Below are positions 17,052 through 56,071 of a stretch of 64,000 bases of DNA, in pieces. The position numbers were made by a program, and so were the translations under genes. Source of the stretch: Ammoniphilus oxalaticus (GTDB taxonomy: Bacteria > Bacillota > Bacilli > Aneurinibacillales > RAOX-1). The stretch covers positions 62,001 to 126,000 of the forward strand of contig NZ_MCHY01000002.1 of NCBI RefSeq assembly GCF_003609605.1, given 5' to 3'. The notes below the pieces were generated by a model. The model saw only the letters and a list, made by a program, of their open reading frames with translations. It searched no databases and was not told where the DNA came from. Position 1 is the stretch's first letter. The number at the start of each line of letters is the position of its first letter.

Positions 17052-18464
17052 TTATTTATTAATTTGATGAATCGCCAGGCCTAAAGCGCCTTCAGCGGCT
17101 TCCATAGTAATCTCACCTAACGTCGGATGAGCATGAATTGTTAAGGCAATGTCTTCTAACGTCGCCCCCATTTCAAGCGCTAAACCGACTTCAGCGATTA
17201 GATTGGATGCTTCTGGACCAACGATTTGTCCCCCTAATAAAAGTCCGGTCTCTTCATCTCCGATCAATTTAACGAAACCTTCTGCAGCATCCATCGTTAA
17301 CGCTCGTCCGTTAGCCGCATAAGGGAAACGCCCGATCGAAATGCTATAACCTTGTTCTTTCGCTTCCGCTTCACTTAAGCCAACGCTTGCAAGTTCAGGA
17401 TCAGAGAAAACAACGGCCGGCATTGCTTTGTAATCAACCGCGCTCGCTTGCCCAGCAATTGCTTCCGCAGCTACTTTTCCTTCATAAGATGCTTTATGAG
17501 CAAGCGCAGCCCCCGCAACAATATCACCAATCGCATAAATATTATCTACGTTTGTTTTCCCTTGGTGATCTACTTTAATTAAGCCGCGTTCATCGAGCTC
17601 CATGTTGATCGCCTCTAAGCCCAGTTCGTCCGTGTTTGGTCGACGACCGACCGTAACCAACACATAATCGGCTGTTACCGATTTTTCCTCGCCGTCAACC
17701 GCATACGTGACAGTCACATCGTTGTCTGTTTGCTCCGCCTTTTGAGCCATTGCCCCTGTCACAACATCAACAGAAGCCTTTCGCAAGTTGCGCGAAACCC
17801 AACGGGACATTTCATTTTCAAAACCAGGTAAAATCGTGTCCGTTCCCTCAAGCACAGTCACTTTCGAACCGAATTTTGCAAACGTTTGTCCCAATTCAAT
17901 CCCGATATAGCCACCGCCAATGACGACGAGACTTTTTGGAATTTCTGTTAAGTTTAACGCCTCGGTTGAGGATAAAATGCGATCGCCGAATGGAAACGGC
18001 TTTAACTCGATTGGGCGTGACCCCGTCGCAATAATACAATGGTTAAAACGATAACGATCCACGTCATATCCGTTGATCACGCGCGCTTCACGCTCATTGA
18101 CAAACAACGCTTCCCCTTTTACGTGTTCCACATTGTTTCCCTTTAGAAGCGAGCCAACCCCGCCAGTCAATCGATTCGTAATCCCATTCTTCCATTCTTG
18201 CACTTTCTCAAAGTCAACTTTAACGCCTTCAACGCTGATCCCCATTTCTGAAGAAGACCCGGCGGATTCATATTGAGCCGCCGCCGTAATCAACGCTTTC
18301 GACGGAATACATCCGCAGTTTAGACAAACTCCCCCTAAATCTGCTTTATCAACAATGACGACGCTTTTCCCAAGCTGCGCGGCGCGAATGGCGGCAACAT
18401 AGCCGCCCGGTCCCGCTCCGATCACGAGCACATCAACTTCTGTCGTAAACTCTCCAACTACCAT
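17052..18464 (-). CDS. pdhD: Dihydrolipoamide dehydrogenase, E3 of pyruvate dehydrogenase
   Basis: 470 residues. FAD motif [15 protein letters not shown], redox disulfide C47-x4-C52 in [10 protein letters not shown] (with an extra Cys50 between), NAD motif [15 protein letters not shown]-ribityl motif IYAIGDIV and the C-terminal HAHPTLGE base. It reoxidises the dihydrolipoyl group of E2 with NAD+. It is the last gene of pdhABCD, 4 bp after pdhC. A normal redox cysteine is encoded here, which contrasts with the TGA-containing relative at 30271-31632. Confidence 0.97.
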
Positions 18465-30240: not shown

Positions 30241-30270
30241 AAAAGGGGTGTTATTCAACACCCCTTTTGG
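30241..30270 (-). terminator. Terminator of the TGA-containing oxidoreductase gene
   Basis: AAAAGGGGTGTT/AACACCCCTTTT arms and a TTTTT tract on the minus strand, directly after the stop codon. Confidence 0.88.
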
Positions 30271-31632
30271 TTAGGAAAGCATTCCCCGCGTCGTTTCGAT
30301 CAAAAATTCGGCTAGCGTCGGGTGGACAGGAATGATTTCTTCAAAATCCTGTACCGTCAATTTTGCTTTAATTGCGATGGTCATCATATGAATTAATTCA
30401 TCCGCGTCCGCACCGACAAAGTGAGCGCCAAGCAGCGCGCCGGTCTGCTTATCCGCAATGATTTTTATATGTCCTTCTGTTTCTCCAAGCAAGATCGCTG
30501 TCCCCGATTGATTGTATGAAGCTTTGGCGACGACAATATCCAACTCTTTTTCCCGCGCCTCTTGCTCTGTCATTCCAACGCCGCTAATCGGCGGTTGGGT
30601 AAAGATCGCATTTGTCATATGTTCATAGTTCGGTTTCAATTCATTGCCGCGTAACGCATTCCGTACTGCAACTTTCGCCTGATGGGCAGCAATCGGCGTA
30701 AACATGTACCCCCCAATTGCGTCTCCAGCGGCATAAATTTTCTCTGCTGTCGTTTGTAAGTATTCATTCACTTTGATCCCACGGTTCGTATATTCGACCC
30801 CAGCCGCGTCCAATTGTAGTCCGACAATGTTGGGTCGGCGCCCTGTCGCTACTAATACCACTTCGGCTTCGATCTGTAGCGAACGATCACCAACTTGGGC
30901 GTGGACAACCAATTGATTGTCATCGATCTGTTCAATCTTTTCGATATCGGCGCGCAGTTGGAGGTCAATTCCCATTTTTTTAGAAATCTCTTGAATCGCC
31001 TCAGCGCTATCCCGATCAACCATCGGCAGCACGCGTTCACTGCGGTGCAGCAACGTCACTTTCGTTCCTGCGCTCGCCATAATATGAGCGAATTCCATTC
31101 CAATAATCCCTCCGCCAATCACGACCATGCTCTTCGGCAATCTCTCTGTAAATAAAATTTCTTTGCTCGTAATCGCATGCTCAATCCCTGGAATCGGCGG
31201 TCTTGCTGAGTCAGACCCAACGCCAATTAAAAAACGATTTGCCGTATACGTGGTATCGCCAACCTGGATCGCTTCAGGAGAAATAAATTGCGCCTCCCCC
31301 ATGACGAGGTCAACACCCATTTTCTCCAAGTAGGGACCTTTGCCGCCAACGAAAGAGCCGATTAAGCGATTCTTTCGTTCCATTACCCGCTGCCAATTGA
31401 GTTGCAAACCTTCTGAAACAATCCCAAATTCCGCCGCATCTTGCATTGTATTCCATACATCCGCAGACCTTACCAAGGCCTTTTTCGGCATTCAACCCCA
31501 GTTCAGACAGGTTCCTCCGACCTTTTCTTTCTCCACCAAAAGTGTTTTCGCCCCTAAAGCCCGCGCTTCGCGCAGTCCATCAAAGCCAACGGTCCCAGCC
31601 CCAATAATAATCATATCGTAGTGTTTACTCAT
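30271..31632 (-). CDS. Dihydrolipoamide dehydrogenase-like disulfide oxidoreductase with in-frame TGA at the redox cysteine (candidate selenoprotein)
   Basis: The complete frame is 453 residues from ATG 31632 (GGAGGG ribosome binding site) if the TGA at 31492-31494 is read through. Before it lies the FAD motif MIIIGAGTVGFDGL and GGTCLNWG; after it MPKKALV. Aligned with the family C-x4-C motif, TGA stands exactly at the second redox Cys (Cys42, Sec47). Downstream everything is intact: NAD motif VIGGGIIGMEF, FAD motif IYAAGDAIGG and the HPTLAE base. A hairpin follows the TGA at SECIS distance. It would reduce a disulfide or similar substrate with NAD(P)H. The alternative is a single nonsense mutation; the frame from MPKKAL alone would lack FAD binding and has no ribosome binding site. 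Confidence 0.8.
31466..31480 (-). promoter_or_regulatory. Candidate bacterial SECIS hairpin of the oxidoreductase
   Basis: On the minus strand GGCCTT-GGT-AAGGTC forms a 6-bp stem (one G-U) with a G-starting 3-nt loop, 17 nt after the TGA. Bacterial SECIS elements usually have a small loop with a G in the first two positions about 16-37 nt after UGA. Chance cannot be excluded, because the same bases encode the conserved KALVRS. Confidence 0.5.
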
Positions 31633-31693
31633 CTTGAATCCCTCCGATTGTTATGAATAATAATAACGATAGCTTTTACCACTTTTGTTGTTT

Positions 31694-35842: not shown

Positions 35843-36499
35843 CTATTTTCTTAACCCTTTTGGAGTCGTCCAGTACTCAAGGCGGTTAAATATACCTTCG
35901 ACTAATAAAGCTAATAGTGTTGCAGGAATAGCTCCTAAAAAGATTAAGCCATCAATCCCACGTGTAATTCCTAAAAATATAAAATCACCTAAACCTCCAG
36001 CGCCGATAAAAGCAGCTAGTGTCGCGTTTCCAATGTTGATAACAGCCGATGTGCGTATACCAGCCATAATAATCGGCAGCGCCAATGGTAGCTCTACTTT
36101 AAAAAGGATTTGCATGCTGGTCATACCCATCCCTTTGGCCGCTTCCCTTGTCGAAGTATCCACATCATTTATACCCGCATACGTATTACGCACGATCGGT
36201 AATAAGGAATATAAAAACAATGCGGCGATTCCCGTTTGAACGCCGATTCCAAAAATCGGAATCATAAATCCGAGTACGGCTAAACTAGGTATTGTTTGTA
36301 AAATACCGGTTCCGCCCAAAACAATCGGAACGAGCCATTTCACACGGGTAATGATCACCCCTAGTAAAACACCTAATACGACAGCCATCACCATTGAGAA
36401 AAAAACAAGTTGTATATGGATGAATGTCGCATCCAAAACTTCAGGCCAACGCATTTGCCATTGCTGAACAATTTGATCCCACAAACTTAAGTTCTTCAT
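35843..36499 (-). CDS. Osmoprotectant ABC transporter permease, OpuCB-like
   Basis: 218 residues with five or six membrane segments. The EAA coupling loop is STREAAKGMGMTSMQILFKV followed by ELPLALPIIMAGIRT. It forms the membrane channel with the ATPase and binding protein. The ATG overlaps the ATPase stop by four bases (ATGA), so translation is coupled. B. subtilis OpuC has two permease genes; only one is present here, so it probably works as a homodimer. Confidence 0.9.
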   Translation of the reverse strand: MKNLSLWDQIVQQWQMRWPEVLDATFIHIQLVFFSMVMAVVLGVLLGVIITRVKWLVPIVLGGTGILQTIPSLAVLGFMIPIFGIGVQTGIAALFLYSLLPIVRNTYAGINDVDTSTREAAKGMGMTSMQILFKVELPLALPIIMAGIRTSAVINIGNATLAAFIGAGGLGDFIFLGITRGIDGLIFLGAIPATLLALLVEGIFNRLEYWTTPKGLRK

Positions 36500-37626
36500 T
36501 CTTCCTCCTCCATTTCAGTCCATTGACTCGACAGAGCAGAAAGTAATGTACCTCGCGTGACTAGACCAATAACTTGTTTGTGGTCATTCAAAACAGGAAT
36601 GATGCCTGTCGAAGAACGCGCCATTTTTACAATTGCATGTTTAGCGCTGTCATTATGGGAAAGAGTTAATTCAGAGGTATCTACGATTTCTTCAAGCGTT
36701 CTAATACTGTCCATCGTCCTTATTAAATCGGATGCAGATACAATACCTTTGAAAGTCCGATCTTCATTAATAATAATCAAATGCGTTATTTTACGTTGCC
36801 GCATGGTCGATAAAGCTTTTTCAGGTGACCGATGCGCATAAGATGAAACAACCTGCTCTCTCATTACTTCGGTCACGGGCATCAATTCTGGATTTTGAAT
36901 AATTTGATGTTTTCCGATGAATTCTTCTACGAACCCATCCGCAGGATCATGCAATAAGACCTCTGGAGTATCAAGTTGCAATAACTTCCCATCTTTCATA
37001 ATCGCAATTCGATCGCCCATTCTAAGCGCCTCATCCATATCATGGGTAACAAACACGATCGTCTTCCTTAGCTTTTGTTGCAAAGAAAGTAACTCTTCTT
37101 GCAGTTGCTCGCGTGTAATCGGATCTAAAGCCCCAAATGGCTCATCCATTAAAATAATGTCCGGGTCGGATGCTAATGCCCTTGCAACCCCTACGCGTTG
37201 TTGCTGACCCCCTGACAACTCTTTTGGATACCGATCACGGAATGTGTCTGGATCAAGACCGACGAGCTGCAATAATTCAGTTACCCGTTCCTTAATCTTC
37301 TGCTTATCCCATCCCTTTAATTGGGGAACGATCGCAATGTTTTTTTCAATCGTATAATGTGGAAACAAGCCGATCTGTTGAATAACATAACCAATATTGC
37401 GCCGCAGTTGGGCTGCATTTAAATCTTTAATGTCTTTACCGTCCACGGTAATGGTTCCGTGTGTCGCTGGGATCATCTGATTAATCATTTTCATTGTTGT
37501 AGATTTTCCAGAACCACTCGGTCCGATTAAAACGAGAAATTCCCCAGCAGGAATTTCAAAACTGACTGAATCCACTCCTTTCGTTCCATCCCCAAAAATT
37601 TTACTTACATTGTCAAATTTAATCAT
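36496..37626 (-). CDS. Osmoprotectant ABC transporter ATP-binding protein with CBS domains, OpuCA-like
   Basis: 376 residues. Walker A GPSGSGKST, Q-loop, signature ELSGGQQQR, Walker B IILMDEPFGALD and H-loop FVTHDMDEALRMGD. The C-terminal ~130 residues hold two CBS repeats (HLIIINEDRTFKGIVSASDL and GIIPVLNDHKQVIGLVTRGT). In OpuC/OpuA-type ATPases these regulate transport by ionic strength or by cyclic di-AMP. First gene of a three-gene operon with the permease and binding protein. Confidence 0.94.
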   Translation of the reverse strand: MIKFDNVSKIFGDGTKGVDSVSFEIPAGEFLVLIGPSGSGKSTTMKMINQMIPATHGTITVDGKDIKDLNAAQLRRNIGYVIQQIGLFPHYTIEKNIAIVPQLKGWDKQKIKERVTELLQLVGLDPDTFRDRYPKELSGGQQQRVGVARALASDPDIILMDEPFGALDPITREQLQEELLSLQQKLRKTIVFVTHDMDEALRMGDRIAIMKDGKLLQLDTPEVLLHDPADGFVEEFIGKHQIIQNPELMPVTEVMREQVVSSYAHRSPEKALSTMRQRKITHLIIINEDRTFKGIVSASDLIRTMDSIRTLEEIVDTSELTLSHNDSAKHAIVKMARSSTGIIPVLNDHKQVIGLVTRGTLLSALSSQWTEMEEEE

Positions 37627-47598: not shown

Positions 47599-49074
47599 TT
47601 ACGTGCCGCAATAGGTTCGATACGGTCGCGTGGATGCCGGCGGCAATGTTGTGTATTCCTCCTGCTCGGTTGTATGTTCATAAGGGTTGGATAAAATCGC
47701 AAGGAATTTCGTCAAAGGAGTGAAATCATCGCGTTCAACCGCCGCAGTTAAAACTTCTTCAACACGATGGTTGCGAGGAATGACCGCTGGATTATTATGT
47801 TTCATCATTTGTAGCGACGCTTGCCTCGTTTCCGATTGTCGCTCCCGTCGCGCCTCCCACTTTTCCATCCATCTTAAAAAGGCTGGAGCCCCAAACAACG
47901 TAGTTGCTCCCGATTTGTCGAAAGTTAACGAGCGAAATGTATTCGTATAGTCAGCTTTATTATTCAGCATGAGGTCAAGCAATTCGGCGATCAGCTTTTC
48001 GTCATCTACTTCTTCATTAAATAACCCTAACTTCGCCCTCATCCCTGTCAACCACTGATCATGGAATCGATCCGCAAAACGGGATATCGCATCCTGTGCC
48101 ATCTCAACTGCTTTGCTTTGATCACTGTGCAACAACGGCAAGATGGTTTCCGCAAATCGGGCCAAATTCCATTCCCCAATTAACGGTTGGTTTCCATATG
48201 CATATCGGCCCTGCGCATCAATTGAACTAAAGACTGTTGCTGGATCGTACACATCCATGAATGCGCAGGGACCATAATCAATCGTCTCCCCGTTTAGCGC
48301 CATATTATCTGTGTTCATCACGCCATGAATGAAGCCGACCAACTGCCAATTGGCAATCAGCGTCGCTTGACGGTCAATCACTTCGTTTAATAACGAAAGG
48401 TAGCGGTTATCCGCTTGAAGCGCTTCTGTGAAATGACGATTCAACGTATAGTCGGCGAGAACTTGTAGATCTTCTTGTTTCCCCCAGTGGGATACATATT
48501 GAAATGTTCCGACCCGAATATGACTCGTTGCCACACGAGTTAAAATGGCCAGAGGTAATCGCTCCTCCCGAATGACTGCATTATTTGTTTTCACGACGGC
48601 CAAACTGCGTGTTGTCGAAATACCTAAAGCATTCATCGCTTCGCTCATAATATATTCGCGTAACATGGGTCCCAGGGCAGCCCTGCCATCACCTGACCGA
48701 GAATACGGAGTGCGCCCTGGGCCTTTCAATTGAATATCGACTCTCTCTCCCGAAGGAGTGATTTGTTCACCGAGTAGAATCGCCCTGCCATCACCTAGCA
48801 TCGTGAAATGTCCAAACTGATGACCAGCGTACGCTTGCGCTAGTGGGGATGCCCCTGTTGGAACTTCATTTCCAGCTAAGGCCGCCAAACCTCCATTTTT
48901 CTTTAAAGATTCACTGTCTAGACCAAGCGACTCCGCCAGTGACTCATTTAATATAATGATGCGCGGCGAATCCACAGGCGTTGGATCCACCTTCGAATAG
49001 AACATGTCGGGCAGACGGGCGTAACTATTGTCAAAATTCCATCCAACAGCGGATTCAGCATTTTCTTTTGTCAT
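47599..49074 (-). CDS. selO: SelO (YdiU) family protein adenylyltransferase
   Basis: 491 residues of the SelO pseudokinase family. Motifs: [20 protein letters not shown] (glycine-rich loop), [45 protein letters not shown] (catalytic loop and metal-binding Asp). SelO proteins transfer AMP from ATP to protein hydroxyls in a reversed nucleotide orientation. The C-terminus is YRTYCGT: the residue that is selenocysteine in animal SelO is Cys here (TGC codon). A ribosome binding site (AAAGGAGATG) precedes the ATG. Confidence 0.93.
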
Positions 49075-55795: not shown

Positions 55796-55823
55796 TGAAA
55801 AAGGAGCGATTTGGCTCCTTTAG
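55796..55823 (-). terminator. Terminator of the SelW-like gene
   Basis: AAAGGAGC/GCTCCTTT arms followed by TTTTT on the minus strand; the gene stop lies at the hairpin edge. Confidence 0.8.
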
Positions 55824-56071
55824 TTTAATATTAACTCTCTGATTAATCCGACTACTTCGTTCTCTTCTGGGAATCGATCCAACTCTTTTTTAGAGTATAC
55901 CAATCGGTCATTAACGGTAATTTCGAAGATTCCGCCTCCTTTAGGCAAGAGCGCCACATCTTCCACATCATTTCGAAAATTGTCATCACTCATTAATTCT
56001 TCCACCAAACTGATGGCTTTTGGCAAGTAATTTCACATATTACAAAATTCGATTTGAACGTTTAACTTCAC
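55820..56071 (-). CDS. SelW-like Rdx-family selenoprotein with CxxU (TGA) motif
   Basis: 83 residues from GTG 56071, 8 bases after AGGGGG, if TGA at 56033-56035 is read as selenocysteine. The sequence VNVQIEFCNM-U-NYLPKAISL places TGA exactly at the U of the CxxU motif (Cys10, Sec13). It is followed by the Rdx signature LLPKGGGIFEITVNDRLVYS and the closing FPEENEVVGLIREL. This is the SelT/SelW/SelH family of thiol-redox proteins. The frame from MPKAISL alone would lack the redox motif and has no ribosome binding site. A hairpin follows at SECIS distance. It has its own terminator. Sec use is highly probable. Confidence 0.85.
56002..56016 (-). promoter_or_regulatory. Candidate bacterial SECIS hairpin of the SelW-like gene
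   Basis: Minus strand CCATC-AGTTT-GGTGG: 5-bp stem (one U-G) and a 5-nt loop with G in the second position followed by U. The loop begins 21 nt after the TGA, inside the normal 16-37 nt range. Confidence 0.55.

Follow-up and report, generated by a model that had tools for sequence, protein, structure and literature searches.

What is an in-frame TGA doing at a catalytic position of an otherwise intact disulfide reductase gene in Ammoniphilus oxalaticus? The gene lies on the minus strand at 30271..31632 of the window (the whole 64,000-nucleotide stretch of DNA analyzed here) and runs from 31632 to 30271. Its 453 codons extend from an ATG start to a TAA stop and contain a single internal TGA, codon 47 (31492..31494, minus strand), which sits precisely where the redox motif (GGTCLNWG-U-MPKKALVRS) has its second cysteine and is aligned with Cys in all the Cys paralogues. 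Read as selenocysteine (Sec), this codon would fill the second, flavin-facing charge-transfer position of a C-x4-U motif. The codon of the interchange thiol, Cys42 (31507..31509, minus strand), is invariant in the alignment. A preliminary description of this DNA had claimed a full-length frame interrupted only at this cysteine, a good ribosome binding site, and intact FAD and NAD(P) dinucleotide folds and an intact His-Glu base, and all of these were recovered: GGAGGG is present by eye 7 nt 5' of the ATG (31640..31645, minus strand), and the alignment located the catalytic His437-Glu442 pair in HPTLAE (30307..30324, minus strand). The terminator that it placed 3' of the gene was recovered in part. 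An inverted repeat with T/A tails is visible between the gene and metA (30241..30268) and is likely a terminator separating the two, but it was absent from the output of a consensus terminator scan.

A Sec reading requires an organism that uses Sec, and the absence of the machinery had been named beforehand as a ground for dropping the claim. The genome of A. oxalaticus (3.3 Mb, 13 contigs, 99.9% complete) was found to encode SelA (588.7 bits), SelB (391.1 bits), SelD (428.7 bits) and tRNA-Sec (64.6). The reading frame of SelD itself (L086, G000:C9:181052-181981) has one in-frame TGA, and this protein is probably a selenoprotein as well. The second gene of the window reported to carry TGA in place of Cys (55820-56071, minus strand) is real and encodes an Rdx/SelW-type (SelT/SelW/SelH) protein, a known family, with CNMU at the CxxU motif and the TGA at codon 13. 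Together, SelA, SelB, tRNA-Sec, SelD and the TGA-bearing SelD and SelW-type genes identify the organism as a Sec user with several selenoproteins. Elsewhere in the window, at 47599-49074 (minus strand), we observed a homolog of the YdiU/SelO-type protein adenylyltransferases (551 bits to NF000658) that is free of internal stops.

The conservation of the TGA was then examined in homologs. Among 101 related genomes, orthologs sharing 51-69% identity were found in five genomes belonging to three families of Bacilli. In each of the five, the full-length frame is interrupted once, by a TGA, and is otherwise open, and each of the five genomes has a tRNA-Sec; matches at 38% identity or below were stop-free. 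Every close relative thus carries TGA and none carries Cys, and the case raised at the outset, that all close strains would have Cys, did not materialize. Sampling more widely, in 399 genomes of the class and 398 of the phylum, yielded neither further orthologs nor a Cys version closer than about 40%; as no close Cys ortholog of the Bacilli branch was found there, the classical Cys/Sec pair rests on more distant paralogues. The A. oxalaticus genome has further Cys paralogues, and the pyruvate dehydrogenase operon has one of them (17052-18464, 572 bits) as its E3, which rules out the Sec enzyme for that role. The Cys paralogues of 19 genomes of the 30-genome set described below were stop-free, and no TAA or TAG interruptions were seen among the matches in those 19 genomes. 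A plasmid search (query P0001) returned, among the best matches listed, only Cys MerA-like proteins below 60% identity and therefore gave no evidence of plasmid spread.

A hairpin with loop GGU had been proposed at SECIS distance from the TGA. Its loop and position held, but the stem is of 7 bp rather than 6: the element AGGCCUU-GGU-AAGGUCU spans 31465..31481 (minus strand), with the loop starting 17 nt after the UGA. The bSECIS model specifies a stem of 4-16 bp, a loop of 3-9 nt with G in its first two positions, a distance of 16-37 nt from the UGA and a minimum free energy of at most -7.5 (PMC13188914), and the window hairpin, at -9.0 kcal/mol, falls within all four of the model's constraints. 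Its folding energy is unexceptional (z = -0.22 against synonymous recoding, -1.10 against shuffles). As energy alone was not significant, we turned to the length of the stem around a G-led loop, which is exceptional (p = 0.0375), and to codon conservation. In each of the 20 sequences from Bacilli and Rokubacteria, a GGU-led loop starts exactly 17 nt after the UGA. Five of the six Bacilli use the same five codons in a row for K-A-L-V-R, although only 14 of the gene's 154 conserved degenerate sites are identical, and these codons, including TTG GTA AGG TCT, recur in Rokubacteria of about 70% GC. The set with 3-nt loops is nearly invariant and consequently offers little covariation; four members have a shifted register, a 4-nt loop and two compensatory pairs. 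In Nitrospirota, a different conserved hairpin, CUAUCC-GGC-GGAUAG, was found slightly further downstream, and no single consistent SECIS hairpin was found in the SAR324/Planctomycetota/Acidobacteria branch. The case for a SECIS is built on where the hairpin lies, on its loop and on its conservation, not on the energy of the window hairpin.

How widespread is a TGA at this position? A collection of 84,980 species was scanned with the class I motif carrying TGA at the second cysteine, a pattern of 19.5 specified bases for which about one locus is expected by chance in 5e11 positions counting both strands. The scan returned 28 loci, from Ammoniphilus, Rokubacteria, Nitrospirota, SAR324, Planctomycetota, Acidobacteria, a single Rhodospirillaceae and an archaeal MAG. 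Nearly all the frames read on for at least 400 codons; two of the few exceptions are cut by contig or locus ends. In the 30 genomes made up of the scan genomes and the Bacilli, tRNA-Sec scored above the curated cut-off in 26. The remaining four comprise the archaeal and Rhodospirillaceae MAGs and, from Rokubacteria, G493 and G500, two MAGs that may be incomplete assemblies. Two of the scan loci were discarded: the archaeal L057, whose frame has just 39 codons left after the TGA, was judged noise, and L073, a plain dihydrolipoamide dehydrogenase (DLD) from the Rhodospirillaceae genome that has no tRNA-Sec above the cut-off, was judged an error. A hit on a viral contig, L081, likewise had a short frame after the TGA and was taken as noise. 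Sec at the first cysteine (UxxxxC) was not seen in any locus examined. In one Rokubacteria genome (G498) the reductase occurs twice, as two distinct copies that both contain TGA (L067 and L078).

Could the TGA of A. oxalaticus have arisen by chance mutation of a Cys codon to a stop, or by a sequencing error, in a dead or misassembled gene? TGC or TGT becomes TGA in one step, and L057 and L073 resemble accidents of this kind. Set against this are five independent orthologs from three families that, at 51-69% identity, keep both the TGA and an otherwise intact frame, the tRNA-Sec in all their genomes, and the frozen codons of the hairpin, which together render the explanation extremely improbable. 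A true stop at the TGA followed by re-initiation at the adjoining AUG (UGA AUG), giving a 406-residue protein devoid of the FAD-binding N-terminus, has in its favor that ATG directly follows the TGA in all six Bacilli sequences and an ORF finder reports the 406-aa frame from that ATG. Nearly all the other Sec loci, however, have ATT, ATC or ATA after the TGA. Re-initiation would also make the conserved N-terminal dinucleotide-binding motif and Cys42 pointless and leave the SECIS hairpin unexplained, and we consider it very unlikely.

The residue inserted at a UGA cannot be identified from sequence alone, which leaves room for readthrough by another route, near-cognate suppression or partial reassignment of the code, with Trp, Arg or Cys inserted. 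Against this, UGA terminates ordinary genes of the window (for example 820-1524 and 36496-37626), and TGA-interrupted genes were seen only at catalytic Cys/Sec positions, together with a SECIS and a complete Sec apparatus; the odds of such readthrough seem to us very slim. Taken with the fold and the motifs, the Sec machinery and the conservation of both TGA and SECIS favor instead, with a probability that we put at about 95%, a selenoprotein flavoenzyme in which UGA47 would be read as Sec by means of SelB, tRNA-Sec and the SECIS element.

To place the Sec enzymes among their relatives, a quick tree of 75 proteins was built with the TGA column masked and with SH-aLRT as the only support measure. 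Sec appears in four branches of this tree; the fewest Sec/Cys changes compatible with it are six, and well-supported branches require at least three of them. One origin shared by Bacilli and Rokubacteria is possible (AU p = 0.10), and an origin shared by Nitrospirota and the SAR324 group is rejected (AU p = 9e-7). The SAR324 group is intermixed with Cys proteins annotated as 'FAD-containing oxidoreductases' (NF004992), with 67% identity in Cupriavidus. We think it quite probable that disulfide reductases of the two-cysteine kind acquired a flavin-facing Sec repeatedly and convergently, at least three times and on different enzyme backbones: in Bacilli with or without Rokubacteria, in Nitrospirota, and in SAR324/Planctomycetota/Acidobacteria. 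If true, this design would be a general catalytic solution and not the property of one odd gene. Near the Bacilli and Rokubacteria Sec branches, the tree also holds two Cys reductases, L104 and L108, in which YPTYASD and FPTYGSD replace the HPTxxE pair; by their sequences they appear to be an unusual subgroup.

Which enzyme, then, does the gene encode? Its product combines the Pyr_redox_2 and Pyr_redox_dim domains with the GGxC-x4-C/U and HPxxxE motifs of class I flavin disulfide reductases. An AF2 model (pLDDT 92.8) has the class I fold, with DLD and MerA as top PDB fold matches (TM 0.92-0.96), and the best PDB sequence matches are mercuric reductase, DLD and glutathione reductase. The preliminary label 'dihydrolipoamide dehydrogenase-like' is sound for the superfamily but not for the enzyme, which narrowly misses the DLD model (TIGR01350, 407.5 vs 408.8 bits) and has His-Arg where DLD has its NAD-type Glu. 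Glutathione reductase was rejected as well, with scores clearly below the cut-offs (NF004776, 376.8/480 bits; TIGR01424, 353.6/606; TIGR01421, 298.6/556), as was mercuric reductase (TIGR02053, 369.3 vs 454.5 bits), whose CC pair is missing from the C-terminus. The Arg, residue 197 (31042..31044, minus strand), follows strand 2 of the NAD(P) domain and is of the NADP(H) type. It is kept in six of six orthologs and, because Arg is also found at this position in GR and MerA, the Glu of DLD lying one position earlier, its conservation suggests that the reductase is NADPH-dependent.

Gene neighborhoods, partly conserved in Bacilli, were of limited use as a guide to the substrate, and nothing clear was found beside the other Sec branches. 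Only A. oxalaticus, G002 and G003 share the order DUF3939, Sec gene, metA; in G032, alone among the ortholog genomes, the gene lies near the E1/E2 genes of a 2-oxoacid dehydrogenase. By eye, the Sec gene of one Nitrospirae contig (L077:1426-2844) has directly upstream of it, in divergent orientation, a small SirA/TusA-like ORF and a gene for a probable YedE/YeeE-type membrane protein, two gene types with links to the handling of sulfur and selenium.

By analogy with the enzyme family, a mechanism can be proposed. UGA47 would be translated as Sec by SelB and tRNA-Sec with the help of the hairpin just downstream, and the product would be a homodimeric class I disulfide reductase. Electrons would pass from NAD(P)H, more likely NADPH, to FAD and on to a Cys42-Sec47 selenenylsulfide. 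Sec47 would be the flavin-facing charge-transfer residue, and Cys42 the interchange thiol that attacks the substrate disulfide, with His437 and Glu442 of the partner subunit assisting. The substrate is probably a low-molecular-weight or protein disulfide. Selenium at the flavin-facing position would be expected to speed electron transfer from flavin to chalcogen, and a selenolate should be less prone to permanent over-oxidation and recover more easily from oxidation.

Class I disulfide reductases are textbook flavoenzymes, and the charge-transfer complex that FAD forms with their second cysteine has served for decades to study them. Selenium placed there by nature would open to test the long-standing question of how the flavin-facing atom affects rate, redox potential and oxidation resistance. 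What began as an observation on one gene extends to several bacterial lineages, and the prokaryotic selenoproteome gains a family, apparently several, independently evolved. Automatic annotation will probably end such genes at the UGA or label them 'dihydrolipoyl dehydrogenase family', and further members are therefore likely to be hidden.

A review of May 2026 that aims at all known and predicted prokaryotic selenoproteins lists 119 families (PMC13188914), and a class I disulfide reductase with C-x4-U is absent from this inventory. Nor was it found in the passages searched on an earlier list of 87 families, the deep-Sep set and a 2005 survey, all in open-access papers, and for the proteins scanned, no NCBIfam model (June 2026) names such a selenoprotein. 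Judged by the open-access literature and NCBIfam, the C-x4-U reductase appears to be an undescribed selenoprotein family. The active-site Cys of CoA-disulfide reductase lies near the flavin. A CoA-disulfide reductase selenoprotein is listed in the same inventory as an FAD-dependent oxidoreductase (TIGR03385) with a single active-site Cys/Sec in UGxP (PMC13188914). The preliminary view, that an FAD-contacting Sec is not known from any described member of the family, thus needs refining: in the wider superfamily there is a precedent, and it is the two-cysteine C-x4-U form that appears to be new. Both proteins belong to the same flavoprotein superfamily and have Sec at an active-site Cys position, but in the Ammoniphilus enzyme the predicted Sec is paired with a Cys. 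The selenoprotein subtype of type III sulfide:quinone reductase (NF049943, HxxU; PMC13188914) is likewise an FAD-dependent Sec oxidoreductase and differs in enzyme class and motif. The 'putative mercuric reductase' NF041115 (UxxU), a metal-binding domain protein (PMC13188914), shares only the mercuric-reductase label and is not a flavin disulfide reductase. The ordinary class I enzymes GR, DLD and MerA have the same fold, FAD and NAD(P) domains, dimerization domain, GGxC-x4-C/U motif and HPTxxE pair. They are only 30-40% identical to the Ammoniphilus enzyme, which differs in having a predicted Sec as its second redox residue and, unlike MerA, has no C-terminal Cys pair. Animal high-Mr thioredoxin reductase is also a class I disulfide reductase that uses Sec, which it carries in a mobile C-terminal GCUG tail, with Cys next to the FAD; the Ammoniphilus enzyme has no such tail and places its predicted Sec at the flavin-facing position itself.
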